Assembly: GCF_000152985.1 (NCBI RefSeq)
Contig: NZ_CH672395.1
Location: 1,749,145-1,813,144, forward strand
Length of the DNA: 64,000 nt
Source: Leeuwenhoekiella blandensis MED217
Lineage (GTDB): Bacteria > Bacteroidota > Bacteroidia > Flavobacteriales > Flavobacteriaceae
Direction of reading: 5' to 3'
The notes under the pieces are model-generated. The model did no database searches. It saw only the letters and a list, made by a program, of their open reading frames with translations, and was not told the origin of the DNA. The translations under genes and the position numbers were made by a program. Below, piece after piece: positions 12,050-51,707 of this stretch (position 1 is the stretch's first letter; each line of letters begins with the position of its first letter).

Positions 12050-12079
12050 ACTGAAATTTTAATTAAAATTATTCCAGAA

Positions 12080-12790: not shown

Positions 12791-12809
12791 CGTGTTGCTA
12801 ATATTAAAA

Positions 12810-13697: not shown

Positions 13698-13761
13698 AAT
13701 TTAAACATTAGGGGAGTGCAAAGTTCAGCTATTTAAATCGCCTTTGCCCTTAAGTTTTAAA

Positions 13762-14868: not shown

Positions 14869-14995
14869 ACGACCTGTTTTTTGGAGAATATATTATGAAG
14901 TTAAGAGGAAGTGGTGCTAAATTAAGTTAAGGATATTTAAAACTTTTAATATCAAGCTACTACAACGATGGTAAATATTAGATGTAAACCATTTC

Positions 14996-19932: not shown

Positions 19933-20362
19933 AGATTAATTATTAGTTGAGTTTACTCGTGTTATTATCCAAATAATTTAGAGGATATAAAATGTTAACA
20001 ATTTTTAAAAAAACTGAAATGAATTAAAGGGGGTTAATCGGTAAAAAATAGGGGATTAATGATTCAATACGCCTAAAACAGGGACATTATGAAGAGATAT
20101 TGATATTTTATGTTGTGAGTTCAATAAAAATCGAACATAGATATTTTCTTTTTCTGGCGCTCAATTTTGTTTATAAATAGATGTTTTTTTAGGTATTTGG
20201 TTGAACTTAATACAATTCAAAATTAAAAAATTCTATTTAATAAATGTATAAGTTACATTTATTTTTATTTTATTTGTAGTGCAGGATCATTGTTTTTTAT
20301 TCTGCATTTAGTTGTTACAGAGAACCTCTGCAACTTATTACAAACACCTAAAAACATATACG
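19933..20362. other. 430-bp divergent intergenic region between susC (arm 1) and tandem GH43
   Basis: This region is AT-rich and contains no gene that I can support. It must hold two divergent promoters. The susC side has the shared motif at 20021-20065. On the GH43 side I see a run of T/A-rich sequence around 20225-20280 but no confident promoter match. Confidence 0.6.
20021..20065 (-). promoter_or_regulatory. Candidate HTCS operator upstream of susC (arm 1)
   Basis: Read on the minus strand, the order is GAATCA, CCCC, a T-rich spacer, GATT, CCCCC, TTTAATTC. It closely parallels 26972-27017 on the plus strand and ends 89 nt before the susC start codon. About 15 nt further on, both leaders have AAAATTG, whose TTG could be a -33 element. 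This is a pattern match by eye between two sites. Binding by the HTCS is inferred. Confidence 0.55.
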
Positions 20363-27103: not shown

Positions 27104-28237
27104 ATGAAGTATATTATTGCATTTTGTTTTGGCTTAGCCATAATACTAGGCTTTAAAATGTCTAAAACAGGACATGATACGTTTAAGCCAGGTGCTATTT
27201 GGGAAGATTTTGATGGCAATCACATTAATGCTCATGGAGGCGGTTTTTATTATGAGGATGGAACCTACTTCTGGTACGGGGAACATAAAGACCAGAATAG
27301 TCTAGCACAGGTAGGTGTGCGTGTATATAGTTCTAAAGATCTTTATAACTGGAGCAATGAAGGAGTTGCATTATCTGTAAGTAGTAATCCTGATTCTGAA
27401 ATCACCACAGGTTCTGTAATAGAAAGGCCTAAAGTAATCTTTAATAAAAAAACCGGTAAGTATGTGATGTGGTTTCACCTAGAGCTAAAGGGGCAAGGTT
27501 ATGCTGCTGCGCGTACAGGGGTGGCAACAAGTGATAGCCCGCTAGGACCATTTGAATATATAAAATCCTTTAGACCTAATGCTAATGTATGGCCTAAAAA
27601 TATCGATGATTCAGAGAAGGTATACAACGAAGAGGATAAAAGTTTAGAATGGTGGACTTCAGAATGGAAAGCATCTTTAGTTGATGGCTTATATGTACGT
27701 AGAGATTTTGAAAAGGGCCAAATGTCAAGAGATATGACCCTTTATGTAGATGATGATGGTACAGCATACCATATACACTCTTCAGAAGAAAACCAAACCT
27801 TACATATATCAGTTCTTACTGATGACTATCTAGACTTTACAGATACTTATGTACGTGTTCAGGAAGGTGGACAAAATGAAGCACCGGCAATTTTTAAATC
27901 AGGAGATACATACTATATGATAACTTCAGGTTTAACAGGTTGGAGCCCTAACCCGGCACGCTCATTCAAATCAAAATCTATGCTTGGCCCTTGGGAAAAA
28001 TTAGGTAATCCCGCCAAAGGTAAAGGAGCAGAATTGACATTTAGGTCTCAAAGTACTTTTGTCTTGCCAGTAGCAGGTAAAGATGATGCTTATATCTATA
28101 TGGGAGATCGTTGGAATCCTAAAAACCATATTGATGGAAGGTATATATGGTTACCTATCTCAATGTCCAACGGCAAACCAGAATTTCAATGGCATGATGA
28201 ATGGGATCTTTCCTTTTTTGAAACAGCATCACCTTAA
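27104..28237 (+). CDS. GH43 family protein, subfamily 24-like (probable exo-beta-1,3-galactanase)
   Basis: This 377-residue protein has an N-terminal signal or anchor (about residues 1-18). The core starts with NAHGGGFYYEDGTYFWYGEHK, a pattern I associate with GH43_24. It then has SRDMTLYVDDDG, HSSEENQTLHISVL, NEAPAIFK with the presumed acid Glu259, and FRSQSTFV with Gln316. GH43_24 enzymes lack the usual Asp base and use Gln or Glu there. This fits Gln316 and distinguishes it from arabinanase-type GH43. The family releases galactose from beta-1,3-galactan, bypassing side chains. It is the first gene of arm 2, directly downstream of the shared motif. Subfamily assignment is from memory of motifs. 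Confidence 0.75.
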   Translation: MKYIIAFCFGLAIILGFKMSKTGHDTFKPGAIWEDFDGNHINAHGGGFYYEDGTYFWYGEHKDQNSLAQVGVRVYSSKDLYNWSNEGVALSVSSNPDSEITTGSVIERPKVIFNKKTGKYVMWFHLELKGQGYAAARTGVATSDSPLGPFEYIKSFRPNANVWPKNIDDSEKVYNEEDKSLEWWTSEWKASLVDGLYVRRDFEKGQMSRDMTLYVDDDGTAYHIHSSEENQTLHISVLTDDYLDFTDTYVRVQEGGQNEAPAIFKSGDTYYMITSGLTGWSPNPARSFKSKSMLGPWEKLGNPAKGKGAELTFRSQSTFVLPVAGKDDAYIYMGDRWNPKNHIDGRYIWLPISMSNGKPEFQWHDEWDLSFFETASP

Positions 28238-28426: not shown

Positions 28427-31400
28427 ATGATTAAAAAATGTTTAATGAACCAAAAAGTAGGAATAGTTCTTTTGCTTTGCCTGCTACTCAATTCAATAGC
28501 AACAGATTTGTATGGAGCTAGTTTATCATCAAAGCCTCCTCAAAAAGTTGTTACAGGAACTATACTAGAGGGCGATAGCGGCACACCACTTCCTGGGGTA
28601 ACCATTGTAGAAAAAGGTACCAAAAATGGTACAAGTACAGATTTTGACGGAAAATACTCCATAACTGTACCGGCCGGAGCTACTCTGGTATTTACTTACA
28701 TAGGTTTTGTAAGTCAAGAGATTGTCGTAGGTGATGAGTCTCAAATAGACCTGACCTTAAGTCCTGATATGGATACTTTAGAAGAAACAGTTGTTATTGG
28801 TTTTGGAGGTAAACAAAAAAAGGGGAGCGTTGTTAGTTCAATAACTACAATTAATCCTAAAGAATTAAAAGGGCCAACAAATAACCTTACTACTATGATG
28901 GCGGGTCGTGTATCAGGTATGATTGCCTATCAGAGAACTGGAGAGCCTGGTGCAGATAATTCTGACTTCTTTATACGTGGACTAGGTACTTTTGGTTCGG
29001 GAAAGCGTAACCCCTTAATTTTAATTGACGGGATAGAGTCAACTACAACAGATATGGCTCGTATTCAACCTGATGACATTGATAGTTTCTCAGTATTAAA
29101 AGATGCTGCTGCTGCATCTGTATATGGAGCACGTGGTGCAAACGGGGTTGTTTTAATTAGTACCAAAAGTGGTAAAGCAGGAGAAACTAAATTTAGTTTT
29201 AGATCTGAAACACGGGTTTCTGCAAATACAACCAACTTCAACTTTGCAGATAACATAACCTATATGAATCTAGCAAATGAAGCCGCTCTTACACGAGACC
29301 GTAATGCGATCCTGCCTTATTCTCAAACTAAGATTGATAGGACTGCTCAAGGAGATAATCCATTGTTGTATCCTAGTAATAATTGGATTGATCAATTAAT
29401 TAAAGATTATACTGTAAATCAAAGTTTGAATCTTAACGTGAGTGGAGGTAGTGAAAAGGCAAGATATTATGTTTCAGGGACATATAATGTTGATAATGGA
29501 GTGCTTGATGTAGATGGGATTAACAATTTTAACAGCAACATAAAACTTCGTAATTATGCAATACGAAGTAATATTAATATACAACTTACTCCTACTACTG
29601 AAGCTATTATAAGAGTATCAGGTCAATTTGATGATTATAATGGTCCTGTAGGAGGTGGTCAGGCGATTTTTAATAGTGCTGTTTGGTCTAACCCGGTTGC
29701 ATTCCCAGCAATATATCCTTCAGAATTACTTCCTTTTATTGACCATCCTCTTTTTGGAGGTGCACCTACAGGCATTGCGTCAGAAACTTTGTTAAATAAT
29801 CCCTATGCTCAGATGGTGAGAGGTTATCAAACAAGGAAAACGTCTACCATTCGACCACAGTTAGAATTAAAACAAGACCTGTCGTTTATTACAGAAGGAC
29901 TTAGAATACGCACAATGGGGTATTTGAGTAGATATTCTACATATACAGTTTCTAGACAATACAATCCATTTTTTTATAGTTCGTACTTAAACCCGGTTGA
30001 TGGTAATATAGAGCTTCAAGTTTTAAATGACGGTAGTGCAAGTTCTATAGGTACAGTAGGACAAGAATATCTAGGCTATAGTGAAGGTGAGAAACTTTTA
30101 GATTCTAGAATATACAACGAGACTGCCATAAATTATGACCGCACTTTTGGAGAGAAACATGCAGTTTCTGCAATGTTACTTAATTTAATTTCTAGCTATG
30201 AAAACGGAAACTCTGGTAGTGTACAAAGCTCTTTAGCCAGAAGAAATCATGGTATTTCAGGACGATTTACTTATGCATATGATAATCGTTATATGTTTGA
30301 AGGAAATTTTGGCTATAACGGTTCAGAGCGATTTGCAAGAGGTAGTAGATACGGTTTCTTCCCTTCAGTAGGTTTAGGGTATCGTATCTCAAACGAGAAG
30401 TTCTTTGAGCCTTTAAAGGATGTTGTGTCTAATTTAAAATTTAGATTAACGTATGGTTCTGTAGGTAATGACCAAATAGGTAATACAGAAGATAGATTTT
30501 TCTATCTATCTAATGTTAGCTTAGATGACGGAAACTATGGTGTTAGTTTTGGACAGGATTTTGGGTATTACCGTAATGGAGTTTATATCTCAAGATATGC
30601 CAATTATGACATCGGTTGGGAAGAATCAGAGCAGGTGAATTTAGGTGTTGATATAGGTCTTTTTGGAGATTTAAATATTGTAGCTGATGTTTTTAGACAA
30701 AACAGAACCAATATCTTACAAGCTAGATCAAATATTGGTTCGGCTCTAGGTTTAACAGCAGTACCACAAGCAAACTTTGCTAAGTTAGAGAGCTACGGTT
30801 TAGATCTTACCGCAGACTATAACAAACAGTTAGGTAAATATTTGTGGACGCAATTAAGAGCTAATTTCACATATGCAGATAATGAAATATTGGAATATGA
30901 TGAGGTAGATTATCCTGAGAATTTAGCATACAGATCTCAGATAGGTCAAAACGCATCTCAGGTTTATGGGTATATCGCTGAGCGTCTTTTTGTAGATCAA
31001 CAGGAGGTAGATAACTCTCCTACGCAATTTGGAGATTATACCGGTGGAGATATAAAGTATCGTGACGTTAATGGAGATGGTGTCATCTCACAGAGTGATA
31101 TGGTGCCAATAGGTAGCCCAACTACTCCAAAAGTCATCTATGGTTTTGGAGGAACGATAGGTTATAAAGCCTTTGATTTAAGTGTGTTCTTTCAGGGGTC
31201 AGCAGGTTCTACCTTTTTTATTAATCCACAGAATATCTCGCCCTTTGTTATAAATGGGGGAGCACAAAATGGACTTTTACAGGTAGTTGCAGATGATTAC
31301 TGGTCAGAAGAAGACCGTGATGTATATTCCTTTTGGCCACGCTTAAGTCAGAATTTTATAGAAAATAATAACCAGACTTCTACTTGGTGGATGCGCAATG

Positions 31401-31615
31401 GAGATTTTTTAAGACTAAAGACTTTAGAGCTAGGTTTTAATGCTCCTCAAGATTTTCTAGAAAAATTTCATATCAAGAGTTTACGCTTCTATGCGAGTGG
31501 TCTTAACCTGGCAGTGTGGAGCAACTTTGATTTGTGGGATCCTGAAATGGGAGGTAACGGATTGGGATATCCAATTCAATCGGTATACAACTTAGGACTT
31601 CAAGTAAACTTTTAA
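28427..31615 (+). CDS. SusC/RagA family TonB-dependent outer-membrane receptor (PUL arm 2)
   Basis: This 1062-residue protein has a signal peptide to about residue 31 (LYGAS). A CarboxypepD_reg-like domain (VTGTILEGDSGTPLPGVTIVEKG) runs over residues 41-120, then a TonB-box-like EETVVIGFG, a plug (MAGRVSGMIAYQR, LILIDGIES, FSVLKDAAAASVYGARGANG) and a large barrel ending YNLGLQVNF. It imports oligosaccharides together with the SusD encoded 6 bp downstream. It differs clearly from the arm 1 SusC in its plug and barrel loops, so the two pairs probably take different fragments of one glycan or two related glycans. Confidence 0.95.
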   Translation: MIKKCLMNQKVGIVLLLCLLLNSIATDLYGASLSSKPPQKVVTGTILEGDSGTPLPGVTIVEKGTKNGTSTDFDGKYSITVPAGATLVFTYIGFVSQEIVVGDESQIDLTLSPDMDTLEETVVIGFGGKQKKGSVVSSITTINPKELKGPTNNLTTMMAGRVSGMIAYQRTGEPGADNSDFFIRGLGTFGSGKRNPLILIDGIESTTTDMARIQPDDIDSFSVLKDAAAASVYGARGANGVVLISTKSGKAGETKFSFRSETRVSANTTNFNFADNITYMNLANEAALTRDRNAILPYSQTKIDRTAQGDNPLLYPSNNWIDQLIKDYTVNQSLNLNVSGGSEKARYYVSGTYNVDNGVLDVDGINNFNSNIKLRNYAIRSNINIQLTPTTEAIIRVSGQFDDYNGPVGGGQAIFNSAVWSNPVAFPAIYPSELLPFIDHPLFGGAPTGIASETLLNNPYAQMVRGYQTRKTSTIRPQLELKQDLSFITEGLRIRTMGYLSRYSTYTVSRQYNPFFYSSYLNPVDGNIELQVLNDGSASSIGTVGQEYLGYSEGEKLLDSRIYNETAINYDRTFGEKHAVSAMLLNLISSYENGNSGSVQSSLARRNHGISGRFTYAYDNRYMFEGNFGYNGSERFARGSRYGFFPSVGLGYRISNEKFFEPLKDVVSNLKFRLTYGSVGNDQIGNTEDRFFYLSNVSLDDGNYGVSFGQDFGYYRNGVYISRYANYDIGWEESEQVNLGVDIGLFGDLNIVADVFRQNRTNILQARSNIGSALGLTAVPQANFAKLESYGLDLTADYNKQLGKYLWTQLRANFTYADNEILEYDEVDYPENLAYRSQIGQNASQVYGYIAERLFVDQQEVDNSPTQFGDYTGGDIKYRDVNGDGVISQSDMVPIGSPTTPKVIYGFGGTIGYKAFDLSVFFQGSAGSTFFINPQNISPFVINGGAQNGLLQVVADDYWSEEDRDVYSFWPRLSQNFIENNNQTSTWWMRNGDFLRLKTLELGFNAPQDFLEKFHIKSLRFYASGLNLAVWSNFDLWDPEMGGNGLGYPIQSVYNLGLQVNF

Positions 31616-31621
31616 TTAGCG

Positions 31622-33607
31622 ATGATGATGAAAGAATTTAAAACAATTAAAATGAAAACATTAACGATAAAAAAATGTTCTGTTTGGAAAAAGCTTGGTG
31701 TTATCATGGTAATTCCTATGATGTTAAACTTACAATCTTGTGAGGACACTTTTTTAGATGTAGTACCAGATAATGTAGCAACAATTGATCAGGCATTTAA
31801 ATTGCGTAACGAGGCCGAAAAATATTTGTTTACCTGCTATGCGTATATGCCTAGAAATGGAAATTTAATCCATAATCCTGCTATGTTGGCAGGTGACGAA
31901 ATGTGGATACCTGATCAACGACAAGGTGTTGTAGCCTATTCACTAGATATAGCTATGGGTAATCAACGCGTATCAAACCCTTATTTTAATGCTTGGGACG
32001 GATATTATAATGGCGGTGGTCCTGCAGATCGATACAATCTTTTTGATGGCATAAGACACTGTAACATTTTTATTGAAAACTTAAGTGACCTTAGTAAGGT
32101 TCCGGACATTCAGCCTAGTGAGCGTGAACGTTGGATTGCCGAAGCTAAATTTCTCAAAGCATATTATCATTTTTACTTGATGAGAATGTATGGGCCAATA
32201 CCAGTTATGAGAGAGAATATTCCTGTTGATGCGCCAAGTGAAGAATTAGATGTTAGTCGTGATAATTGGAATGAGAGTATCGCATATCTTATAGAACTAT
32301 GTGATGAAGCTATCGCGATTTTACCTCCATCTATAACCGATATAAACTCAGAGCTAGGTAGAATTACAAGACCTATTGCTTTAGGTTTAAAGACACGTAT
32401 TTTGCTAACCGACGCAAGCCCTTTATTTAATGGTAATTCAGATTTGGCTGGATTGGTAAATAAAGATGGTGCGCAATTGTTTGATACAGAGTATGATGCT
32501 TCAAAGTGGGAATTGGCAGCTGATGCAGCATTGCTGGCTATTGAAGCTTCTGAGGCTGCAGGACATTCATTATATGAATTTCCGGGTTCGGGATTCACCT
32601 TGACAGATACCACAACACAAAAGCTAACCATTAGAAATGCGGTTTCAGAGCGTTGGAATTCAGAAGTGATCTGGGGTAATACAGTAAGTAGAACAGGAGA
32701 AATTCAATTAAACGCGATGGCTCCATTGAATGTTGCTCATTCACCCAATAATGCGCGTAAAGTTATGTCTCCAACCCTCAAAATAGCACAGCAGTTTTAT
32801 ACTAAAAACGGAGTGCCTATTGATGAAGACACAACATTAGACTTTAGTGATATTCTTGAATTAAGAGAAGCAGGTGCAGCCGAAAAGAATAACATTAGAC
32901 AGGGGTATAATACATCTATTTTAAATTATGACAGAGAACCAAGGTTTTATGCAGATTTGGGCTTTGACGGTTCTATATGGTATAAATACGATAGTGGAAA
33001 CGAAGAAACTAGATTTCATATTGAAGGGAAATACAATGATTATGCAGGAAGTAATACAGCTTTCTTCTTTAATATGACAGGATATTATGTGAAGAAGTTA
33101 GTAAACTGGAATCAGAGTTTTGGAGAATCATCTGCATCGTATAGAGAGTATGCTTGGCCAGAATTAAGACTTGCAGATCTATATCTAATGTACGCCGAAG
33201 CACTCAATGAAGTGCAAGGTCCTTCCCCTGAAGTTTTTGAATATTTAGATAGAGTTAGAGATCGAGCAGGTTTAGAAGGTGTACAAGAATCTTGGGCTAA
33301 CTTTTCATCAAATCCTAATAAGCCTAACTCTCAAGATGGGCTGAGAGATATAATTCATCAAGAGCGCAACATAGAAATGGCCTTTGAGGGAAGTCGTTTT
33401 TGGGATATCCGAAGATGGAAAGAGGCTTCACGTGAATTCAATGAGCCCATACGTGGGTGGAATGTTTTTGGAGAAGACGAGGCATCATATTATCAGGTAA
33501 GAACAATTTATCAACAGCGCTTTGTTTCTCCAAGAGATTATTTCTGGCCTCTCGCAGAAAATGCATTATTACAAAATTCAAATTTGGTTCAAAATTTAGG
33601 ATGGTAA
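31622..33607 (+). CDS. SusD/RagB family outer-membrane lipoprotein (PUL arm 2)
   Basis: This protein has 661 residues from the first ATG. A later in-frame ATG at 31652 (MKTLTIKKCSVWKK) gives a more normal signal, so the true start may be there. The lipobox is MLNLQSC. SusD features are EDTFLDVVPDNVATIDQAF, the TPR-like EAKFLKAYYHFYLMRMYGPIPV, DLYLMYAEALNEV, and the C-terminal RNIEMAFEGSRFWDIRRW. It is longer than the arm 1 SusD (542), belonging to the large SusD type. It presumably lids the adjacent SusC barrel and selects oligosaccharides. Confidence 0.94.
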   Translation: MMMKEFKTIKMKTLTIKKCSVWKKLGVIMVIPMMLNLQSCEDTFLDVVPDNVATIDQAFKLRNEAEKYLFTCYAYMPRNGNLIHNPAMLAGDEMWIPDQRQGVVAYSLDIAMGNQRVSNPYFNAWDGYYNGGGPADRYNLFDGIRHCNIFIENLSDLSKVPDIQPSERERWIAEAKFLKAYYHFYLMRMYGPIPVMRENIPVDAPSEELDVSRDNWNESIAYLIELCDEAIAILPPSITDINSELGRITRPIALGLKTRILLTDASPLFNGNSDLAGLVNKDGAQLFDTEYDASKWELAADAALLAIEASEAAGHSLYEFPGSGFTLTDTTTQKLTIRNAVSERWNSEVIWGNTVSRTGEIQLNAMAPLNVAHSPNNARKVMSPTLKIAQQFYTKNGVPIDEDTTLDFSDILELREAGAAEKNNIRQGYNTSILNYDREPRFYADLGFDGSIWYKYDSGNEETRFHIEGKYNDYAGSNTAFFFNMTGYYVKKLVNWNQSFGESSASYREYAWPELRLADLYLMYAEALNEVQGPSPEVFEYLDRVRDRAGLEGVQESWANFSSNPNKPNSQDGLRDIIHQERNIEMAFEGSRFWDIRRWKEASREFNEPIRGWNVFGEDEASYYQVRTIYQQRFVSPRDYFWPLAENALLQNSNLVQNLGW

Positions 33608-33635: not shown

Positions 33636-34838
33636 ATGAAATGGAATTTATTTAAAAAGATGAGCTTTTATCTGATGGCCACTATGTTCATAGTGAGCTG
33701 TACAGAAGAAGATGTTAATGAGCCTTTAGAAAGTAATTCTGAAAAACCGGGGCAGGTATCAGATGTGAGAGTAGAGAATTTGGCAGGAAAAGCCAGACTA
33801 AGTTATACACTACCTAATGATCAAGACCTTCTGTATATCAAAGCAGATTATGTTTTAGAAAATGGTAGAGAGATGAATGTAAAATCATCATACTACAATA
33901 GTTCTGTGCTTTTAGAAGGGTTTTCTGGTAATTCAGAGGTTGAAATAGCAATAACTACGGTAAACAGAAGTGAAGTTGAATCAGATCCTGTTTATGTTAC
34001 GGTTAATCCAGATTTGGCACCTATCTACGATATTTATGAGAGTCTAGAAGTTGCACCTGCATTTGGAGGTATTTTTGTTTCTGCAGACAATCCGGAACGA
34101 GAGGATATCGCTATTCTCATTATGGAAGAAGATGAGTACGGTGATTGGGTAACATTAGGAAACAGTATTTATACATCTACTAATGAAATTGCAAGTACAC
34201 TTAGAGGGATGGATACTATAAATAAAAAGTTTGCCCTAGCCGTGAGAGATCGTTGGTTAAACTATACAGATACTTTGTTTGCTGATGTAAAACCGCTTTT
34301 TGAAGAAGCAATTCCAAAGTCGGGCTATAGAGGAGTTACATTACCTAATGATGCACCTCATCATCCTTCGACCTCATTAGAAGGTCTGTGGAATGGAAAT
34401 ATATGGGACTGGCCGCAAATATATTTAACTGCCGGAACGTACACAGCCTCTAACCATATATTCACTTTTGATATGGGGGTACAGGCTCAACTTAGTAGAA
34501 TTGTGATATGGGATTATCCTGAATATTTTAATAATAGATCATACTACTATTTGGCGTGTCCTAAACGCTTTAGAATATACGGGTCAGATGTTTTAGAGAC
34601 ATCAGGAGATCTATCAGAATGGACATTATTAGGAGAGTATGAAGAAGTAAAACCTTCAGGTCTTCCTTATGGGCAGCAAACTAATGAAGATTTTGAAACT
34701 GCAAACGCCGGGTTCAGTTGGGACATTCCTATTGATATGCCTAGAGTAAGGTACATACGAATTGAAAACCTTGAAAATTGGGCAGGAGGTAAACAAATTG
34801 CAATAGCCGAACTTCAGGCATATGGTAATTCACAGTAA
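33636..34838 (+). CDS. Surface glycan-binding lipoprotein, DUF4959/DUF5126/DUF5000-like
   Basis: This 400-residue lipoprotein has the lipobox MFIVSC. The N-terminal domain (EKPGQVSDVRVENLAGKARLSYTLP) matches the DUF4959 type. A second beta domain of DUF5126 type begins near residue 125. The C-terminal 170 residues resemble a discoidin-like DUF5000 fold (FDMGVQAQLSRIVIWDYPEYFNN, RYIRIENLENWAGGKQIAIAELQ). Such proteins lie directly after susCD in many PULs and act as SusE/F-like surface glycan-binding proteins. The F5/8-type domain is the likely sugar-binding part. Ligand is unknown. Confidence 0.8.
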   Translation: MKWNLFKKMSFYLMATMFIVSCTEEDVNEPLESNSEKPGQVSDVRVENLAGKARLSYTLPNDQDLLYIKADYVLENGREMNVKSSYYNSSVLLEGFSGNSEVEIAITTVNRSEVESDPVYVTVNPDLAPIYDIYESLEVAPAFGGIFVSADNPEREDIAILIMEEDEYGDWVTLGNSIYTSTNEIASTLRGMDTINKKFALAVRDRWLNYTDTLFADVKPLFEEAIPKSGYRGVTLPNDAPHHPSTSLEGLWNGNIWDWPQIYLTAGTYTASNHIFTFDMGVQAQLSRIVIWDYPEYFNNRSYYYLACPKRFRIYGSDVLETSGDLSEWTLLGEYEEVKPSGLPYGQQTNEDFETANAGFSWDIPIDMPRVRYIRIENLENWAGGKQIAIAELQAYGNSQ

Positions 34839-34858: not shown

Positions 34859-36598
34859 ATGAAAACATATAAGAAACAATTTTTTCTCTTGCTGTGTTTT
34901 GTGGCTCTAGCCTTTACAGCGTGTTCAGATGAGATGGAAGAGTATAGAAAGTTCACTGAAGGAGGTGAAATTAACTATACAGAAAAATTAGACTCAGTAG
35001 AAGTATTTACAGGAAGAGAAAGACTGTATTTACGAGGAATCCTTAAAGCAGATCCTAAAGTTACAAGTTTTAGGGTGTACTGGAATAATAAGGCAGATTC
35101 TGTAGTAGTACCGGTAACCCGTACCAAACCAGTAGATACTCTGGGGGTATATATAGATAATTTAGAAGAAAATATATACAACCTTGAAGTACGCACCTAT
35201 GATGATGAGTTAAATAGTTCTATACCTGTAAATGTAACAGCAGAGGTTTATGGCGAGCGATATCAAAATACACTGTATAACAGGCCAGTTATAAGTAATG
35301 TTTTAATTGGTACAGATCTGACTGTTAGTTATTCTTCAATGGATTTAACTACAGGGGTTTTAGGTACAGAAATTCAATATACTTCAAGCAATACTTCAGA
35401 AATGGAAGAATTGTTTGTGCCTATTGATTCGGCGATGGCTTTTATAGAAGATTTTACGAGTGGTTCAGAATATCAATACCGTACGATATTTAAACCAGAA
35501 CCTACTAGTATAGATACGTTCTATACAGGCTATCAGGCTTATATACCAGAACCAAAATTAACAGATCCTCCATATCTTGTGAATAGCACATATCCTTTTG
35601 AAATTTTAGAAGGAGGAAGTAGATGGGGAACTCCAGCAGGCTGGATACATAATGAAGCTGCACTTAGTCACGATGGATACGGTGCTTTAGATGGAGAAAT
35701 ATTTGATCTAGAAAGTGGGTGGGGGCAACCTGACCTTATTAACGCTAAAGTTTATCAAACAGTAATCTTACCTGCAGGGACGTACGCTTATAGCATAAAT
35801 ATAGCAGAGCTTAATTATGAAGGAGCAGATAATAATTTAGACCAAGGGTATTTCACGGTAGCAAGAGGTCCACAATTACCTGATGTGTCAGAAGTAGAAA
35901 CTTCATCTGAGACACTCGCATATGAACGTGTTAACAGGGCTAACGGACTTAATAGATTGCTTACCTTCTCTTTAGAAGAAACCACACAAGTATCTATAGG
36001 TGTTCAAACAACAAACGATCAAGGAGCAGGTAGGTATTTGAAAATTAATTCTTTTGCATTAAATCAATTTTCAGAAGCGCCATATCTTAAAAATGCATCA
36101 GTTCCTTTTAGACTTGCTACTCAAGGTAGTCGATGGGGGACTCCTGCAGATTGGATTCATAATGATGGAGCTATGAGTCATACAGATAATGGACCTCAAG
36201 GTGCATATGATGGTAACTCGGCTACTTGGGATTTAGAAAGTGGATGGGGACAACCCGATATTCTGAATGGCAAAGTGTACCAGGTTTTATTTCTTGAGCC
36301 GGGTACATACACCTATACGATAAACATCTTTGCTACAAATTATCAAGGCACACGCGGTACAGCAGATCAAGGCTACTTTGTGGTTGCAGAAGGTAATACG
36401 TTACCTGATGTGGTAGATGTCGAAGAAGCTGAGGAAACCTTAGTCTTTGAAAGAGTAGACTCAGAAAACGGAAATGTAAGTACGTTAACGTTTACAATTA
36501 CAGAACCAACAGAGGTAGCTATTGGAGCTGAAACAACTAACGACGAAGGTGCAGGTCGTTATTTACAGGTCGAATCTTTTAGACTTGTTAAGCAATAA
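34859..36598 (+). CDS. Surface glycan-binding lipoprotein with DUF4998 and two DUF5013-like domains
   Basis: This 579-residue lipoprotein has the lipobox ALAFTAC. The N-terminal domain (about residues 30-130) matches DUF4998 (MEEYRKFTEGGEINYTEKLD). After a linker domain come two similar domains of about 170 residues, both of DUF5013 type. They start PYLVNSTYPF and PYLKNASVPF and share SRWGTPA.WIHN, DLESGWGQPD, N.KVYQ and TTND.GAGRYL. The duplication suggests a two-site binder giving avidity for a long polymer. The conserved Trp residues are plausible sugar-stacking positions. It is the last gene before a strong terminator and so completes the capture-and-import part of arm 2. Confidence 0.78.
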   Translation: MKTYKKQFFLLLCFVALAFTACSDEMEEYRKFTEGGEINYTEKLDSVEVFTGRERLYLRGILKADPKVTSFRVYWNNKADSVVVPVTRTKPVDTLGVYIDNLEENIYNLEVRTYDDELNSSIPVNVTAEVYGERYQNTLYNRPVISNVLIGTDLTVSYSSMDLTTGVLGTEIQYTSSNTSEMEELFVPIDSAMAFIEDFTSGSEYQYRTIFKPEPTSIDTFYTGYQAYIPEPKLTDPPYLVNSTYPFEILEGGSRWGTPAGWIHNEAALSHDGYGALDGEIFDLESGWGQPDLINAKVYQTVILPAGTYAYSINIAELNYEGADNNLDQGYFTVARGPQLPDVSEVETSSETLAYERVNRANGLNRLLTFSLEETTQVSIGVQTTNDQGAGRYLKINSFALNQFSEAPYLKNASVPFRLATQGSRWGTPADWIHNDGAMSHTDNGPQGAYDGNSATWDLESGWGQPDILNGKVYQVLFLEPGTYTYTINIFATNYQGTRGTADQGYFVVAEGNTLPDVVDVEEAEETLVFERVDSENGNVSTLTFTITEPTEVAIGAETTNDEGAGRYLQVESFRLVKQ

Positions 36599-36609: not shown

Positions 36610-36652
36610 AAAGAACAGGAAATACAGTTTAGCTATTTCCTGTTCTTTTTAT
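36610..36652 (+). terminator. Strong Rho-independent terminator splitting arm 2 of the PUL
   Basis: A perfect 15-bp stem (36610-36624 with 36634-36648) encloses a 9-nt loop, followed by more T. It begins 12 bp after the binding-protein stop and 55 bp before the next start codon. It separates the import genes from the enzyme genes. Confidence 0.9.
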
Positions 36653-36664
36653 TTCAATTGAATT

Positions 36665-37876
36665 ATGAATGTAATTTGTATGCGTAGACTAGTATATTCC
36701 TTGCTATTTCTTCTGAGCTCACTATCGTGTAGTAGTTCTGATACTACAGACGACGCGGTTATAGAACCAACTCCAGAAAAGAATGTTGAACTCGCAGAAT
36801 TAAACACTCAAGATGTAACAAATATAGATACTTTTAACGCTACTATACTTGCTGCTGTAACAGATGCCGGTGACGGAAGTATTTCTGAAAGAGGAATTTA
36901 TTTAAGTACAACTCCTGATTCAGGTGATGGAGAAAAATTTTTGGCATCAACAATTAAGGGTTCAGGTGAATTTACTGTGAATCTAACAGGTTTACAACAA
37001 GCCACTACCTATTATGCTAAGGCCTATGCTGTAAATCAAGCAGGTGTAGCGTATGGAAATGAGATAAATTTCAAAACGCTAATTGCTGAGTCGGCTTTAT
37101 TTGATACAGATGTAAAATCAGTCTCTGGAGCTCATGATATTTTTGTAGAAGTTAAATTGGTAGATCGTGGAGATTTACCCATCGCAGAAATAGGAGTTGT
37201 TTGGGGGACTGAAGAAGTACCTACAATAGAGGATAATAAATTAATGCACACTACGGTAGAGGATCATTTTAAGCAACGTATAACAGATCTTGAAGAAGAA
37301 CATTTGTACTTTATACGTCCTTATATGATCTCAGAAGGAGAGGCTGTTTATGGTCGTCAGATGATTATTTCAACTATTAAGAAAGGAGAGTTTACCTGGT
37401 CTTTTAATGGAACCTTAAATTTAGACAATCCTACTCATGTACGTATTAAAGCGGCGTTTGATGAGGCTTGTATGTATTTCAACAACTTCACTTCGATCAC
37501 AAAACATGTTACAGTTAATTATTCTCCCGGTACTCCAACAGCTGATGCAAATTTTGCAGGTTGGATCAATATGGGAGCTGTAGAAAGTTATCAAAGAACG
37601 GGTACAGCATTGCATGAAATGGCGCATACGGTTGGTATTGGTCAGCATTGGAGATTTGACGATTTATTTACAGATAACCGTTATAATGGAGAAAGAGCTA
37701 ATGAAATCGTACAGTTAATGAGCGGTAATGACGAGGAGTATATTAGAAAATCTGGAGTGCACTTTTGGCCTTATGGAATTAATGGAGCACACGAAGATAC
37801 CGGAGAAGAAGATTTATATATAACTCACTGTTTAATCTTACAGGGAATGAAGACTGATGGTTTGCCTTCAAATTGA
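36665..37876 (+). CDS. Lipoprotein with FN3-like domains and an HExxH zinc-peptidase-like domain
   Basis: This 403-residue protein has a lipoprotein signal (LSSLSC, Cys22). A start at the second Met, 36680, is also possible. Residues about 38-137 and 142-238 look like fibronectin-type beta domains (FTVNLTGLQQATTYYAKAYAVN). The C-terminal domain holds HEMAHTVGIGQH: His317, Glu318, His321, Gly324, His328. This is an HExxH zinc motif with a third His seven residues on, one residue further than in canonical metzincins. Further conserved-looking pieces are IVQLMSGNDEEY and HFWPYGINGAHED. The family is not one I can name. A peptidase or zinc-dependent glycan-modifying role are both possible. Within a PUL aimed at a proteoglycan, cleavage of the protein core is an attractive inference. 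Confidence 0.65.
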   Translation: MNVICMRRLVYSLLFLLSSLSCSSSDTTDDAVIEPTPEKNVELAELNTQDVTNIDTFNATILAAVTDAGDGSISERGIYLSTTPDSGDGEKFLASTIKGSGEFTVNLTGLQQATTYYAKAYAVNQAGVAYGNEINFKTLIAESALFDTDVKSVSGAHDIFVEVKLVDRGDLPIAEIGVVWGTEEVPTIEDNKLMHTTVEDHFKQRITDLEEEHLYFIRPYMISEGEAVYGRQMIISTIKKGEFTWSFNGTLNLDNPTHVRIKAAFDEACMYFNNFTSITKHVTVNYSPGTPTADANFAGWINMGAVESYQRTGTALHEMAHTVGIGQHWRFDDLFTDNRYNGERANEIVQLMSGNDEEYIRKSGVHFWPYGINGAHEDTGEEDLYITHCLILQGMKTDGLPSN

Positions 37877-37927: not shown

Positions 37928-42395
<4,468 letters not shown>

Positions 42396-42406: not shown

Positions 42407-44365
42407 ATGAAGTATTTTAAACCTTTATGTATTGCAAGTGTATTGCTAATGCTGACTACATCACAAGTATGGAGTCAGCTTCCGGCTGTAGTTTCTAGTC
42501 CTGATGATCGTATTAAAGTGCATATTCAGTTAGAAGATCAAAAACCGGTTTATGCCGTACAACTTGATGGTGTTGTTTTTTTAGAGAATTCACCACTGGG
42601 TTTAAAAACTTCATTAGGAGATTTTTCTGAAGGATTATCTTTTGCTGCGCAAAGTACTACAGCAATAGCTAAAACCTACGAGCTTAAAAAGGCTAAAGTA
42701 AGTCACGTTGAATATCAGGCAAATGAGCTGATCGTAAAGTTTATAAATACTAATCAAGATACCTTGGCTGTTCAGTTTAGGGTAAGCAATGCTGATGTTG
42801 CTTTTGCATACAAACTCACGGCAAAGGAGCGCAATACCAAAGTGAAGATTCTAGAAGAAGCAACCGGATTCAATTTACCAGATGATGCTACTTCGTTTAT
42901 CACTCCTCAAGCTTTACCGATGACAGGTTGGGAACAAACCAAACCTTCGTATGAAGAAGAATATACCTTTGACGAAGCTTTGGGAACCGAGTCGCAATAC
43001 GGTGTAGGTTACACCTTTCCTGCTTTATTTAAGAATGAAGAAAAGGGATGGATTTTAATTTCTGAAACCAACGTTGACGGGAGTTATCCCGGTTCTCGAT
43101 TAGGAGAATCAGATAAAAATGGCTTGTTTCCGTTAGCTTTTCCTCAGGAAGGTGAGAATAATGGTTTAGGAGATGCTTTTGCTGCAATGGCTATGCCGGC
43201 GCAAACTCCTTGGCGAACCATTACCGTGGGCAAAACATTAAAACCTATAGTAGAGACCACCGCTTCATTTGATCTTGTAGAGCAGCGTTATGCGCCTTCT
43301 CAGGAGTATCAAATGGGAAGAGCAACGTGGAGCTGGATCGTTTGGCAAGATAACAGCATCAACTACGAAGATCAAATTGAATATATTGACCTTGCTGCTG
43401 CTTTAAATTTTGAATACGTACTTATTGATAACTGGTGGGATGCCCGCATAGGTCGCGATAAGATTGAGGAGTTGGTAAAGTATGCCAATTCAAAAGATGT
43501 TGATGTGGTTTTATGGTATAACTCTAATGGTTTTTGGAGTAATGCGCCGCAAACTCCACAAGATTTTATGAATACCGCTTATAAACGCCAAAAAGAGATG
43601 GCTTGGTTGAAAGAAATAGGAGTTAAAGGTTTAAAAGTTGACTTTTTTGGCGGTGACAAGCAGATGACGATGCAACTTTATGAAGATATATTGAACGACG
43701 CCAATACGTACGGTCTGGCAATTACTTTTCACGGCTGTACTATTCCACGTGGTTGGGAAAAAATGTATCCAAACTACGTGACTTCAGAAGCAGTGCGTGC
43801 ATCAGAAAATTTAATTTTTACGCAATATGCACTCGACAAACACGCTTATTACAGTACGATTTTACCATTTACACGTAATCCCATAGGTGCAATGGATTTT
43901 GCTCCGGTGTTCTTGAACAAGCGTTTGAGCCGTGATCAAAAGGGAGGAACCGTGCGTAAAACTACAGACGCTTTTGAACTGGCAACTGCAGTTCTTTATT
44001 TTTCACCGATTCAGCATTTTGGCTTAACACCAAACAATCTTGAAGAGCAGCCTGAATTTGTTTTAGACTTTTTGCGAGAAGTGCCTACAGTTTGGGACGA
44101 GACCGTTTATGTGGGCGGTGAACCGGGCGATTACGCAGCAATAGCGCGTAGAAAAGGAGATACCTGGTATCTGGCAGTAACAAATGGAGAGCAAGCAAAG
44201 AAGACGCTGGAATTAGACTTACCCATGTTTAAAGGTATCGAAGCAACCCTAATTTATGACGCAAAAGACAAATCTGCTGCTCAAAAAACAGTTAAAGTCA
44301 AAAAGAACGGAAAATTAAAAATTGATGTTCTTGGTGAAGGAGGAGCCTTATTAATCTCAAAATAA
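42407..44365 (+). CDS. GH97 family glycosidase, retaining type (alpha-galactosidase-like)
   Basis: This 652-residue protein has a signal peptide ending near SQVWSQ. The GH97 N-terminal beta-sandwich (SPDDRIKVHIQLEDQKPVYAV, ENSPLGL) precedes the TIM barrel (RATWSWIVWQDNSINYEDQIEYID, LIDNWWDARIG). Asp412 in GLKVDFFGG sits where retaining GH97 members have their nucleophile, and Glu461 in TSEAVRASEN is the likely acid/base. Inverting SusB-type alpha-glucosidases lack that Asp. An alpha-galactosidase or beta-L-arabinopyranosidase is therefore more likely than an alpha-glucosidase. Its stop overlaps the next start (TAATG at 44363-44367), which implies translational coupling to GH16. Confidence 0.85.
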   Translation: MKYFKPLCIASVLLMLTTSQVWSQLPAVVSSPDDRIKVHIQLEDQKPVYAVQLDGVVFLENSPLGLKTSLGDFSEGLSFAAQSTTAIAKTYELKKAKVSHVEYQANELIVKFINTNQDTLAVQFRVSNADVAFAYKLTAKERNTKVKILEEATGFNLPDDATSFITPQALPMTGWEQTKPSYEEEYTFDEALGTESQYGVGYTFPALFKNEEKGWILISETNVDGSYPGSRLGESDKNGLFPLAFPQEGENNGLGDAFAAMAMPAQTPWRTITVGKTLKPIVETTASFDLVEQRYAPSQEYQMGRATWSWIVWQDNSINYEDQIEYIDLAAALNFEYVLIDNWWDARIGRDKIEELVKYANSKDVDVVLWYNSNGFWSNAPQTPQDFMNTAYKRQKEMAWLKEIGVKGLKVDFFGGDKQMTMQLYEDILNDANTYGLAITFHGCTIPRGWEKMYPNYVTSEAVRASENLIFTQYALDKHAYYSTILPFTRNPIGAMDFAPVFLNKRLSRDQKGGTVRKTTDAFELATAVLYFSPIQHFGLTPNNLEEQPEFVLDFLREVPTVWDETVYVGGEPGDYAAIARRKGDTWYLAVTNGEQAKKTLELDLPMFKGIEATLIYDAKDKSAAQKTVKVKKNGKLKIDVLGEGGALLISK

Positions 44366-45270
44366 TGAAACTGAATTTCCAACATATCGCCGGTTTTTGT
44401 GGAGCGCTCTTCTGTATGATACTAACTGCTCTTATGGGCAGCTGTAAATCTTCAGCAGAGAAGTCGATAGAAGAAGCTATTCAGGTTCCAAGTGGGTATG
44501 AATTGATTTGGCACGACGAATTCGATTCCGGTGCAAAACCAGATCCGGATTCCTGGTCTTATGAGAACGGATTTGTGCGCAACGAAGAATTACAATGGTA
44601 TCAAGAGGATAATGCTTCGATACAGGATGGTCATTTGGTAATTACCGGAAAGAAGGAAAAGGTTAACAATCCCAATTTTGAGGCAAAGAGCACGAATTGG
44701 AAAAAGAATCGGGAGCAGTCAGCCTATACTTCTTCGAGTATCAATACCCGTGGTAAGTTTCAGTTTAAATATGGCATTGTAGAAGTGCGCGCAAAAATTG
44801 ATACCGCAAGCGGCATGTGGCCGGCAATCTGGACTTTGGGTATTGATAAAGGATGGCCATCCAATGGCGAGATCGACATGATGGAATTCTACCAAATAGA
44901 CGGTAAACCTCATATTCTGGCTAATGCGGCTTGGGGTGCTAATTGGAGGAATGTATCCTGGGACAGTGAAAAAATTCCGTTTGCTGAATTTTTAGAAAAA
45001 GACCCGCAATGGCCTGAAAAATTCCACATCTGGAAAATGGATTGGACTTCAGAATCTATCAAACTCTATTTAGACGGCGAATTACTCAATGAAATCCAAC
45101 TCAATAAAACGCAAAATCCTGATGGCTTTAATGGCTTTCAACAACCGCATTATCTTTTGCTCAACCTTGCTATAGGTTCTAACGGGGGAAAACCTGGGGA
45201 AAATGCCTTTCCGGGAGAATACCGCGTAGATTATGCACGAGTTTATCAAAAAAGTAAAAACACTAACTAA
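44365..45270 (+). CDS. GH16 family endo-glycosidase lipoprotein
   Basis: This 301-residue protein has the lipobox LMGSC, so it is membrane-anchored and may be at the cell surface. The GH16 fold is clear: LIWHDEFDSG at the start, INTRGKFQFKYGIVEVRAKI, GMWPAIWTLG, and the catalytic GEIDMMEF with nucleophile Glu169, Asp171 and acid/base Glu174 in the beta-bulge form. The C-terminus has PHYLLLNLAIGSNGG. The group contains laminarinases and endo-beta-1,3-galactanases. With a GH43_24-like exo-galactanase in the same operon, an endo-beta-1,3-galactanase that makes importable fragments is the favoured inference. A laminarinase cannot be excluded. Confidence 0.85.
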   Translation: MKLNFQHIAGFCGALFCMILTALMGSCKSSAEKSIEEAIQVPSGYELIWHDEFDSGAKPDPDSWSYENGFVRNEELQWYQEDNASIQDGHLVITGKKEKVNNPNFEAKSTNWKKNREQSAYTSSSINTRGKFQFKYGIVEVRAKIDTASGMWPAIWTLGIDKGWPSNGEIDMMEFYQIDGKPHILANAAWGANWRNVSWDSEKIPFAEFLEKDPQWPEKFHIWKMDWTSESIKLYLDGELLNEIQLNKTQNPDGFNGFQQPHYLLLNLAIGSNGGKPGENAFPGEYRVDYARVYQKSKNTN

Positions 45271-45280
45271 TAGATTAGCA

Positions 45281-46468
45281 ATGAATAACCACTTTAAAAT
45301 AGTTCTATTAACTGTAGCTTTGACTGTTGTTTTCAGTAGTTGTAAAAGCAAAGGAGACAATACCACTCAGAAGCAAGATGCTGATATTGAGCAAACCATG
45401 ATTCCCCAGGAAAAGGATTCGGTTTTAGCTATTATTGAAAAGGTAAACACACACTGGCAAGAAGCGCATCCCGAGCCAAATTTTGCATTTTGGCATCCCG
45501 CGGCCTATCATACCGGGAATATAGAGGCTTATAAATTGACAGGAAATGAAGAGTTCTTAGCCTATTCTGAAGCCTGGGCAGAGCATAACAAATGGATGGG
45601 AGCAAAATCTGATGATAAATCAGCCTGGAAATACAACTACGGAGAAACCGATGATCACGTACTTTTTGGAGACTGGCAAATTGCATTTCAAACCTATATA
45701 GACCTCTATACGCTTGAAGGTTCAACAGACCCTTCAAAGATTGCCCGAGCAAAAGAAGTGATGGAGTATGAGATGAGCACGCCAAATAACGATTACTGGT
45801 GGTGGGCAGATGGTTTATATATGGTGATGCCGGTAATGACCAAATTGTATAAAGTCACAGGAAACGAGCAGTATCTGGATAAACTCAACGAGTATCTGGC
45901 CTATTCAGACAGCATTATGCTCGATGAAGAAACCGGATTATATTTTCGCGATGCGAAATATGTTTACCCTAAGCATAAAAGTCTCAACGGAAAGAAAGAC
46001 TTCTGGGCGCGTGGAGACGGTTGGGTCTTTGCCGGTTTAGCTAAGGTGCTTCAAGATTTGCCTGAGAATTCTCAGTATCGGGAAGCATTTGAAAGCCGTT
46101 TCAAAAAAATGGCTGTAACCCTTAAAGAAGCTCAGCAGCCAGAAGGCTATTGGACGCGCAGTATTCTAGATCCTGAGCACGCTCCTGGACCAGAAACCAG
46201 CGGAACAGCATTCTTTACTTATGGATATTTATGGGGAATAAATAATGATCTTCTTGATGAAGAAACCTATTTGCCGGTTGTAGAAAAAAGCTGGGAATAT
46301 CTTACTGAAGTTGCTTTGCAAGAAGACGGAAGCGTGGGTTATGTACAACCTATTGGAGAAAAAGCCATTCCCGGGCAAGTGGTAGATGTAAATTCGACAG
46401 CAGATTTTGGAGTCGGAGCGTATTTGCTTGCAGCTTCAGAAATGGCACGCTTTGTCGATTCAGAATAA
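45281..46468 (+). CDS. GH105 unsaturated glucuronyl/galacturonyl hydrolase lipoprotein
   Basis: This protein has 395 residues from the ATG at 45281, which gives the lipoprotein signal MNNHFKIVLLTVAL...FSSC. The longer frame from 45233 would overlap the GH16 gene. The (alpha/alpha)6 barrel shows GH105 motifs: FWHPAAYHTGNIEAY, WWADGLYMVMPV with the likely catalytic Asp177, FWARGDGWVFAGL (Asp246) and GPETSGTAFFTYGYLWG. The family hydrates the double bond of Delta-4,5-unsaturated uronic acids left by lyases. That makes it the natural partner of the propeller protein if the latter is a rhamnose-glucuronate lyase. The gene lies 10 bp after GH16. Confidence 0.85.
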   Translation: MNNHFKIVLLTVALTVVFSSCKSKGDNTTQKQDADIEQTMIPQEKDSVLAIIEKVNTHWQEAHPEPNFAFWHPAAYHTGNIEAYKLTGNEEFLAYSEAWAEHNKWMGAKSDDKSAWKYNYGETDDHVLFGDWQIAFQTYIDLYTLEGSTDPSKIARAKEVMEYEMSTPNNDYWWWADGLYMVMPVMTKLYKVTGNEQYLDKLNEYLAYSDSIMLDEETGLYFRDAKYVYPKHKSLNGKKDFWARGDGWVFAGLAKVLQDLPENSQYREAFESRFKKMAVTLKEAQQPEGYWTRSILDPEHAPGPETSGTAFFTYGYLWGINNDLLDEETYLPVVEKSWEYLTEVALQEDGSVGYVQPIGEKAIPGQVVDVNSTADFGVGAYLLAASEMARFVDSE

Positions 46469-46477: not shown

Positions 46478-48523
46478 ATGATTTTAGTAAAACAAATAAA
46501 GTACATCACCGGTTTTTGCGTGGTGCTAATCACTATGGCTTCCATTGAAGCTCAAGAAATAAAACCTGCCAAGCAAGTTGATGGTGAAATGCCCCTTTTT
46601 GAGGTAGAAGATCCAGATTATGAGTTGAGCCCAATGACGGGAATGACGCGTAAGCATTGGGAAGATGCAGCACGCTATTTGCTTGAAGGAGCCTTTAGTT
46701 ATATTGATGATCTAGATGATCCGATGAAGTTCCCTAAACTTCCCGGAAAGAGTTATCCGCACGATATAAGTCGTGTTCCAACCGAAAAATTAGAAGGCCT
46801 CGTACGTACGTTATTTGTTGCGGCTCCTTTGCTTAAAAAGGAACCGGACCTTACCTTAAACGGAATAAAAGTAGCCGAATATTATCAGCATCAAATTCCG
46901 AAGCTTGCAAATCCCAATAGCGAAGCATTTATAAAACCACGGGGTAACGGTGGACCAAGTCAGAATCTGGTTGAGTATGGTGCGCTGGCAATTTCCTTAT
47001 TTATTTCTCCAGAAACGCTTTGGGAGCCCTTAAGTCAGGAAGATAAAGATGCGCTGGCAGCTTCTATGCTGAGTTATGGTGACGGACCAACGGTACCTTC
47101 AAACTGGAAATTCTTCAACATTTTTGTGCTGAGTTTTTTTGATGCGCAAGGGTATGAGGTAAACAAACCTTTACTTGAAGAATATTTGAATAAATCACTG
47201 GCAGATTATCGCGGCCAAGGTTGGTATAATGATAATCCGGCCTACGATTATTACAGTATGTGGGCATTTCAGGTTTATGGCCCGATGTGGGCATCGGTGT
47301 ACGGTAACACCCATTATCCGGAGATCGCTAAAGCCTTTAAAACCAATTTTCAAGATTTGGTCTATCACTATCCGTATATGTTTTCAGAAGATGGAGAAAT
47401 GATCATGTTCGGGAGAAGTATAAGTTATCGCATTGCGTCTATCAGTCCGTTTCCGTTTGCAGGAACGCTTGATGACGATACGATCAATTTGGGCTGGTTG
47501 CGTCGTATTTCTTCGGGGGTGTTGCTTCAGTTCTTAGAGAATCCTGAGTTTTTGAAAGATCGAATCCCAACTCTAGGCTTCTATGATCATTTTGAACCTG
47601 CAGTACAAAATTATAGCACGCGAGGTAGCGTATTCTGGATGGGTAAAGCCTTTTTAGGATTGCTGCTTCCGGAACATAATGCGTTTTGGACCGCAACCGA
47701 AAATGAAGGACCTTGGGCATCTCGATTTGAAGATGATGCGGTGTATAACAAATTTCAAGCAGCTTCAAACGTATTACTAACAGATTACCCCGGGATTGGA
47801 GCTTCAGAAATCAGAGCCTGGTGTCACGAGCGTAAAGCAGACGACTGGCAAGGGTTCCGCAGTAGTGAGAACTATAACAAGTTGTCGTATAATTCGGCAT
47901 TTCCTTGGCAAGCCGATGGCGTAGACGGTACCATCTCGATGAATTATGTTTTTAAAAATGCAAAAGAAGAATGGGAACCTTGGCGACTGTATACTTTTAA
48001 AAAATATGAAGACGGCAAATACTACCGTGACGCCATTTTAGAAACTAATGATCAGGTACATATGCAGTTGGTTGACATCCCATTAGCAAACGGTATTTTG
48101 CGCGTAGATAAGCAGACAAGTGAGGTGCCTGTTGCTATGCGTCTTGGGCATTATGCGCTTCCTGAAGTAAACGGAAAAACAATTGAGCAAAGCACTCAAA
48201 AAGTAGGTGATTATACTGCGACCATCATTGATAATGGGCAATATCAACTCGCTATGGTACCGCTTTCAGGATGGGAAAATATTGCCGTATTAGAAAAAAC
48301 CGACCTGAATCCGGTTTCTGATGACAGTGCCGTGATCAATGTGTCTGCAGAATTTTTGCCAAAGGCTAAAAACAAAATCTATGCAACGCTTATGCTTTGG
48401 AAAAAATCAGGCGAAGCTTGGAAAGAAGAGGAGTTGTTGCCGGTGAACAGTCTAGAGTCAAAAGCAAACAAGGTTGAGGTTAAAATGACATCGGGTGAAT
48501 TACATAGTATCACTTTTGATTAA
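46478..48523 (+). CDS. GH154 (DUF2264) family protein, probable exo-beta-glucuronidase
   Basis: This 681-residue protein has a signal peptide (ending SIEAQE). Residues about 45-390 match DUF2264: MTGMTRKHWEDAARYLLEGAF, LEGLVRTLFVAAPLL, QNLVEYGALAISLFISPE, GWYNDNPAYDYYSMWAFQVYG and FGRSISYR. A C-terminal beta domain of about 250 residues follows. GH154 was founded on a beta-glucuronidase from a Bacteroides arabinogalactan locus (recalled from the literature). The role predicted here is removal of GlcA from galactan side chains. It follows GH105 by 9 bp. It is the most specific pointer, together with GH43_24, to a glucuronic-acid-decorated galactan. Confidence 0.8.
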   Translation: MILVKQIKYITGFCVVLITMASIEAQEIKPAKQVDGEMPLFEVEDPDYELSPMTGMTRKHWEDAARYLLEGAFSYIDDLDDPMKFPKLPGKSYPHDISRVPTEKLEGLVRTLFVAAPLLKKEPDLTLNGIKVAEYYQHQIPKLANPNSEAFIKPRGNGGPSQNLVEYGALAISLFISPETLWEPLSQEDKDALAASMLSYGDGPTVPSNWKFFNIFVLSFFDAQGYEVNKPLLEEYLNKSLADYRGQGWYNDNPAYDYYSMWAFQVYGPMWASVYGNTHYPEIAKAFKTNFQDLVYHYPYMFSEDGEMIMFGRSISYRIASISPFPFAGTLDDDTINLGWLRRISSGVLLQFLENPEFLKDRIPTLGFYDHFEPAVQNYSTRGSVFWMGKAFLGLLLPEHNAFWTATENEGPWASRFEDDAVYNKFQAASNVLLTDYPGIGASEIRAWCHERKADDWQGFRSSENYNKLSYNSAFPWQADGVDGTISMNYVFKNAKEEWEPWRLYTFKKYEDGKYYRDAILETNDQVHMQLVDIPLANGILRVDKQTSEVPVAMRLGHYALPEVNGKTIEQSTQKVGDYTATIIDNGQYQLAMVPLSGWENIAVLEKTDLNPVSDDSAVINVSAEFLPKAKNKIYATLMLWKKSGEAWKEEELLPVNSLESKANKVEVKMTSGELHSITFD

Positions 48524-48578: not shown

Positions 48579-51707
<3,129 letters not shown>

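Follow-up and report, generated by a model that had tools for sequence, protein, structure and literature searches.

The bacterial handling of the protein part of arabinogalactan-proteins (AGPs) and hydroxyproline-rich wall proteins is, to our knowledge, less mapped than that of the sugar part. The gene analyzed here encodes a probable lipoprotein with a C-terminal zincin-like domain, in a polysaccharide utilization locus (PUL) of Leeuwenhoekiella blandensis MED217; the window refers to the whole 64-kb stretch of DNA that was analyzed. AGP loci of Bacteroides are comparable in their GH145- and GH105-like enzymes, SusC, SusD and surface endo-galactanase, but the main text of the report on them uses none of the terms peptidase, proteolytic, protein backbone or metallo (PMC8406133). 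For Latescibacteria, AGP glycosidases and wall-protein peptidases were predicted in one organism, with hydroxyproline-rich glycoproteins as the material, whereas the peptidases are general ones listed genome-wide and none is placed inside a capture locus, as far as the report's description of them goes; knowledge of hydroxyproline-rich glycoprotein use is called limited there (PMC4454575). Putative peptidases joined to dockerins were described in Ruminococcus flavefaciens, although 10/16 of its dockerin peptidases are transglutaminase-like (PMC2930009). The concept of a zinc peptidase secreted to attack plant wall glycoproteins has a precedent in Svx of soft-rot bacteria, a gluzincin presumed to act on extensins, with the motif HExxHx(22)E (PMC9266454), whereas the distal invariant residue of the present domain is His366. 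An AGP locus with a metallopeptidase was not found in the open-licence papers searched, and the domain was not named there either. The reading preferred here, held at a probability of about 0.52, is that the gene encodes a zinc metallopeptidase of an undescribed zincin family, which would cut a plant or algal wall glycoprotein beside a SusC/SusD capture complex.

Locus and protein architecture

Coordinates are positions in the window, on the forward strand unless stated. The locus holds a GH43-type enzyme of 740 aa (20312..22534), a hybrid two-component sensor with Reg_prop, HisKA, response regulator and AraC parts (22765..26865, reverse strand), a further GH43-type enzyme (27104..28237), a SusC-like outer-membrane transporter with TonB plug (28427..31615), a SusD-like lipoprotein (31622..33607) and two lipoproteins, DUF4959-DUF5126-DUF5000 (33636..34838) and DUF4998-DUF5013 (34859..36598), both of which are predicted as probable glycan-binding proteins. 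The zincin gene is just downstream of this capture block. It is followed by a BNR_4 protein like the GH145 rhamnosidase BT3686 (37928..39277; 604.8 bits, NCBIfam cut-off 700), GH2 (39285..42395), GH97 (42407..44365), GH16 (44365..45270), GH88/GH105 (45233..46468), DUF2264 (46478..48523), which we take to be GH154 in CAZy, and GH2 (48582..51707). At the PUL end, a 907-aa protein (51713-54436) gave an MG2 domain as its sole match. The sequence-only reading had placed the gene inside a PUL, and the SusC/SusD pair, sensor and glycoside hydrolase genes around it bear this out. SusC/SusD, the sensor and the GH145-, GH16-, GH105-, GH154- and GH43-like genes occur all together. The gene set fits an AGP-type PUL, as GH145 and GH105 are known from AGP loci (PMC8406133).

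The open reading frame at 36665-37876 was confirmed, with an ATG start and 403 aa in the order FN3-FN3-zincin-like domain. A predicted lipoprotein signal peptide (36665..36730) ends in the lipobox cysteine Cys22, which was invariant in 19/19 full-length rows; the product is therefore probably a lipoprotein, and probably one of the outer membrane, exposed at the surface. The full-length model (19 rows, pLDDT 86.9) began with a signal helix, followed by two domains rich in beta structure and then the C-terminal domain. In Foldseek searches the beta-rich part resembled tandem fibronectin type III domains (best E 8.7e-11), placed at about residues 43-139 (36791..37081) and 150-239 (37112..37381). 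Pfam matches to this N-terminal part were FN3-like and all sub-threshold, a PDB sequence search with the whole protein gave antibody-like matches to the FN3 part only, and the NCBIfam match of residues 11-139 to the BT0360 arabinanase model reached 53.6 bits against a cut-off of 600; NCBIfam gave nothing of note for the remainder of the protein. The two fibronectin domains would form a stalk holding the catalytic domain off the membrane.

A 15-bp hairpin with a U-run, terminator- or attenuator-like, separates the DUF4998 gene from the zincin gene (36610..36648; -18.1 kcal/mol, z -5.1). It was not among the results of a promoter and terminator scan with a loop limit of 8. Such a hairpin followed the DUF4998 gene in 14/21 relatives, mostly with a different sequence, compared with 8/184 other gene ends in those loci and 0/63 SusC, SusD and DUF4959 ends, for a rule that was set after the window hairpin had been seen and with two control sets that overlap. 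The hairpin may lower expression downstream relative to the capture block. The proposal that the gene belongs to the same operon agrees with strand and spacing, but this strong terminator-like hairpin intervenes between the gene and the preceding one.

Fold and candidate zinc site

The zincin-like domain (163 residues, 241-403; 37385..37873) received no name from Pfam, NCBIfam or PDB sequence searches. Modelled alone with AlphaFold2 from a 59-row alignment, it folded confidently (pLDDT 97.2, pTM 0.92). The top solved folds in Foldseek were zinc endopeptidases, all weak: BMP1 (E 8.4e-3, query TM 0.34), meprin, MMP-12 (0.36) and snapalysin (0.36). The query-normalized TM-score was at most 0.38 among the 50 matches listed, and no solved structure matched the domain at E 0.001 or below. 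A PDB profile search aligned the first strand and helix, then the HExxH helix, to MMP-12 in the same order, with E 0.12 for the sequence and neither aligned stretch significant by itself. The comparison with metzincins proposed in the sequence-only reading returned a confident fold with metzincins on top, but at weak scores.

Neither the window protein nor its domain matched a Pfam peptidase model at E up to 1, and no NCBIfam peptidase family was matched by the protein over its curated cut-off. When 59 members of the domain were compared with Pfam, weak peptidase matches were obtained, the best being M66 (E 7e-4), M10 (0.021) and Astacin (0.025). The M35 model was matched by one of the 59 members (E 0.074) and the DUF6055 model by only one (E 0.18); M60 was absent among the 15 Pfam families matched. 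The weak zinc-endopeptidase fold matches, together with the lack of a Pfam model for the window domain, place the zincin-like domain outside the families searched, and it is probably a new, unnamed zincin family of peptidases.

The residues of the putative site were compared across 86 domains from Bacteroidota, Fibrobacterota, Bacillota and one plasmid of Actinomycetota (Clavibacter). Two overlapping sets of 86 were used; the later set omits L002, L003, L005, L006, L007, L023 and L024, rows which also represented the named copies L025, L026, L035, L037, L039 and L050, and adds 7 clostridial rows. The sequence-only reading had listed HEMAHTVGIGQH (His317, Glu318, His321, His328), LMSGND and HFWPYG, and all three are present in the open reading frame. 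His317, Glu318 and His321 of HEMAH (37613..37627) and His366 of HFWPYG (37760..37777) were each found in 86/86 domains, in both sets. This invariance exceeds what chance would give, and with the nameless searches it agrees with the earlier description of an unclassified zinc-peptidase-like lipoprotein.

Metzincins carry HExxHxxGxxH/D, with a third ligand in the motif and a Met-turn following it. The domain is like the astacins (M12A), MMPs (M10) and snapalysin (M7) in its HExxHxxG helix, in the order of the preceding strand and helix, and in its top Foldseek and PDB profile matches, but motif positions 11 and 12 offer no conserved third ligand, and the domain is without a conserved Met-turn candidate. 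Position 11 is mostly T or Q. His328 (37646..37648), at position 12, was present in 64/86 domains of the later set (otherwise S 10, T 6, Y 3, Q 1, C 1, L 1) and in 69/86 of the earlier one. On a maximum-likelihood tree its state changed 8 times by parsimony, at least 6 of these forced by well-supported branches, and 13/17 rows without it in the earlier set had no other histidine 5 to 20 residues past the first histidine of the motif. Met352 of LMSGND was a methionine in 18/86 only and so is not a conserved Met-turn; Met395 was one in 31/86. His328 and Met352 were both rejected on these sequence counts as third ligand and Met-turn, and the domain does not show the metzincin signature. The match of metzincin models to members is weak. 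The earlier proposal, a metzincin variant whose third histidine lies one residue further than usual, is helped by the retention of His328 in most Bacteroidota members and by an HExxHxxGxG stretch like that of MMPs; in view of the repeated changes at His328, it is very improbable.

His366 is a likelier third zinc ligand than His328, because it is invariant where His328 varies. It lies 45 residues past His321 and, when the domain is modelled alone, within a hairpin (domain strands 121-123 and 126-128); confidence of the full-length model drops to 66-74 around residues 361-380, the region of His366. The nearly invariant Glu377 (84/86) could serve in its place, in the manner of the distal glutamate ligand of gluzincins such as the M60-like and Svx peptidases. 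The surrounding stretch, GxHxWPYG, resembles the Aspzincin (M35) motif GTxDxxYG, in which the aspartate is a ligand; M35 was rejected, as the stretch here is without an aspartate. HExxH with His366 is the simplest reading of the candidate site: one zinc ion would be held by His317 and His321 from the HExxH helix and by His366 from the distal beta-hairpin (GxHxWPYGxN), and Glu318 would activate water. A degenerate zincin, its fold kept for binding carbohydrate or protein with catalysis lost, would explain the variation at His328 and the lack of a matching peptidase model for the window protein. An invariant catalytic glutamate would not be needed for binding alone, however, and with all four residues at 86/86 we regard this reading as highly unlikely.

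Gene neighbourhoods of relatives

The best 80 of 323 relatives were examined, corresponding to 79 loci. By best match to window proteins at 1e-8, with some of the scores low, SusC-like genes were found in 25 of these, SusD-like genes in 24, BNR_4/GH145-like genes in 9, GH43-like in 11, genes like the second GH43 in 13, and GH16-, GH105- and DUF2264-like genes in 6 each. Twenty-one loci gave 22 pairings of a zincin gene with a DUF4998 gene, drawn from domain-found loci and thus silent on the frequency of the block without the domain; in 20 of these the zincin gene lay on the same strand, 44-2758 bp downstream. The exceptions were L042 and, in L050 with its two zincin genes, the second copy.

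A GH16-like gene with an EVDILE-type motif stood directly upstream of the zincin gene in five loci (L025, L026, L028, L032, L033), and one gene further upstream, with a GH43 in between, in L027 and L030; in L106 the directly upstream gene had a Pfam GH16 match. The proteins of L025 and L027 matched solved GH16 laminarinases in the PDB, while Pfam gave no match for the L027 protein. Near the zincin gene, lipoprotein-like proteins of GH16 type that carry a stalk were recorded at L025:8078-9244, L027:6858-8057 and L028:8057-9220. Over 131 aa, the stalk of the L025 protein shared 39% identity with the stalk of the window protein (FN3 domain 1), and the same stalk part was found in like genes of G006 and G010.

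Other peptidase-like proteins were found in a few loci. DUF6055, filed under MEROPS M106 (PMC11241649), was represented by proteins with HExxH in three of the domain's loci, adjoining the zincin gene in L057 (2520-5831) and L095 (942-2978) and about 7 kb from it in L097 (10908-12779, reverse strand). Its profile spans 417 positions, against 163 aa for the present domain. The L087 locus holds a Peptidase_Mx1 protein. A DUF2927 protein adjoining the zincin gene (L027:11213-12619) was considered as a partner peptidase and rejected, as it is without HExxH. In L052 the zincin gene is preceded by a Glyco_hydro_cc protein and followed by a protein (11901-14975) with GH16, GH88/105 and DUF2264 domains in a row, that is, three AGP-type steps fused in one chain.

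Loci L042-L103 were surveyed through 86 of their 204 nearest neighbours, among which glycan enzymes were few. Among the 25 families listed, of 109, there were four GH88, three Glyco_hydro_cc, two each of GH43, GH2 and GH31, and also five DEAD helicases. A glycan-locus setting as a general rule found no support in this survey, which counts against the preferred reading, and around the domain in most gut and rumen relatives no glycan locus was recognized.

Distribution in the genus and family

Among 13 Leeuwenhoekiella genomes, nine have a GH145-like gene, these nine are also the ones with DUF2264, and seven have the domain; all seven carriers fall within the nine, an overlap with a chance of 0.021 if genomes are assumed to be independent, which they are not. 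In a family sample of 299 genomes, 4 carried the domain and 33 DUF2264, with all four carriers (two of them from one genus) having DUF2264 somewhere in the genome and 29/33 DUF2264 genomes being without the domain. In the carrier G640 the zincin and DUF2264 genes lie on separate contigs, and the zincin neighbours matched none of the window proteins compared.

Two Leeuwenhoekiella genomes have the locus without the domain (G003, locus L105; G011, locus L104). The sensor is directly followed by the GH145-like gene, the glycosidases and sensor are retained, and GH43, SusC, SusD, both binding lipoproteins and the zincin gene are all missing there; a search for the domain in the two genomes gave no match. 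These joint absences, read from gene content, support a tie between the zincin gene and the SusC/SusD capture block.

Other settings of the domain

In Clostridia the domain was found in 8 of 291 genomes, one of which was already in the set (L089 = L108). All eight proteins carry a type I dockerin and three also Ricin B. In the Fibrobacter class it was found in 66/126 genomes. Fusions of the domain with a T9SS tail (L048, L061), with LamG (L045) and, in the second L050 copy, with Ricin B were over cut-off; Ricin B or LamG modules are fused to the domain in L045, L050 and L113-L115, and the Ricin B matches in L046, L061 and L098 were below cut-off. The copy on the Clavibacter plasmid sits among three GH43-LamG genes. 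L048, L066, L071 and other fusions of 700-1600 aa have long N-terminal parts without a convincing Pfam or NCBIfam match, and a PDB search with the L048 and L066 fusions gave no match at 0.01.

These settings bear on two further explanations. The protein could be the bacterium's own processing or quality-control protease, which matures or clips SusC/SusD or surface lipoproteins and never meets a plant polymer. Such a role would suit a gene that follows SusC/SusD and the binding lipoproteins and that is missing together with this block from G003 and G011. The dockerins on clostridial copies of the domain tell against it, however, as do T9SS-tailed fusions such as L048 and L061, in whose loci no SusC or SusD match was found, so that we consider an own-processing protease decidedly unlikely. 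Less easily set aside, though still the weaker reading, is a zinc hydrolase other than a peptidase, cutting an amide, ester or sugar-hydroxyproline link in plant wall polymers. The PUL partners of the domain are glycan enzymes, modules of the Ricin B or LamG type are fused to it, and it is common in the Fibrobacter class, whose known members use cellulose, not protein, as their food. Against this, both the HExxH signature and the best-matching folds resemble those of peptidases, and DUF6055/M106 and Peptidase_Mx1 proteins occur in some of the same loci.

Discussion

On the peptidase reading, the enzyme would act beside the SusC/SusD capture complex and the GH16 endo-hydrolases and cleave the polypeptide of a wall glycoprotein from plants or algae, in this locus most likely an AGP. 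Large glycopeptides would thereby be reduced to pieces fit for binding, trimming and import. The sequence-only reading had suggested the AGP protein core as the target, on condition that the locus is one for AGPs. The AGP-type loci of all genus carriers and the DUF2264 genes of all four family carriers agree with this, but many relatives lie outside AGP-type loci, so the AGP core is one candidate substrate only. The dockerins, the Fibrobacter-class members and the other fusions indicate that the domain is at home among plant-wall degraders in general, and a role confined to AGPs looks too narrow. Plant wall glycoprotein at large is a likelier target than the AGP core alone, given the dockerin-bearing forms, the presence of the domain in roughly half of the Fibrobacter-class genomes, and its many gut and rumen members that lie away from glycan loci.

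A wider proposal is put forward tentatively, as one that may well prove wrong. An unnamed zinc-enzyme family with its third ligand in a distal-hairpin histidine could be an add-on module, common to several systems, that opens plant wall glycoproteins; SusC/SusD loci, cellulosomes (through dockerins), T9SS-exported proteins, Ricin B proteins and Fibrobacter would each have acquired it separately. Some SusC/SusD loci would pair it with a GH16 endo-hydrolase on a like stalk, placing the cuts in protein core and glycan backbone next to each other at the import pore.

The domain is small, confidently folded and widespread, occurring in SusC/SusD loci, with dockerins and in the Fibrobacter class, and is without a Pfam or NCBIfam name. 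If His366 is a ligand, this would be a zincin whose third-ligand place is unlike that of the metzincin, Svx and M35 motifs. One purified protein would make the wall-protein question testable and, if the reading is true, could yield a tool enzyme for plant glycoproteins. For Leeuwenhoekiella, given the relatives in other plant-wall degraders, the window protein may help to open plant wall proteins.
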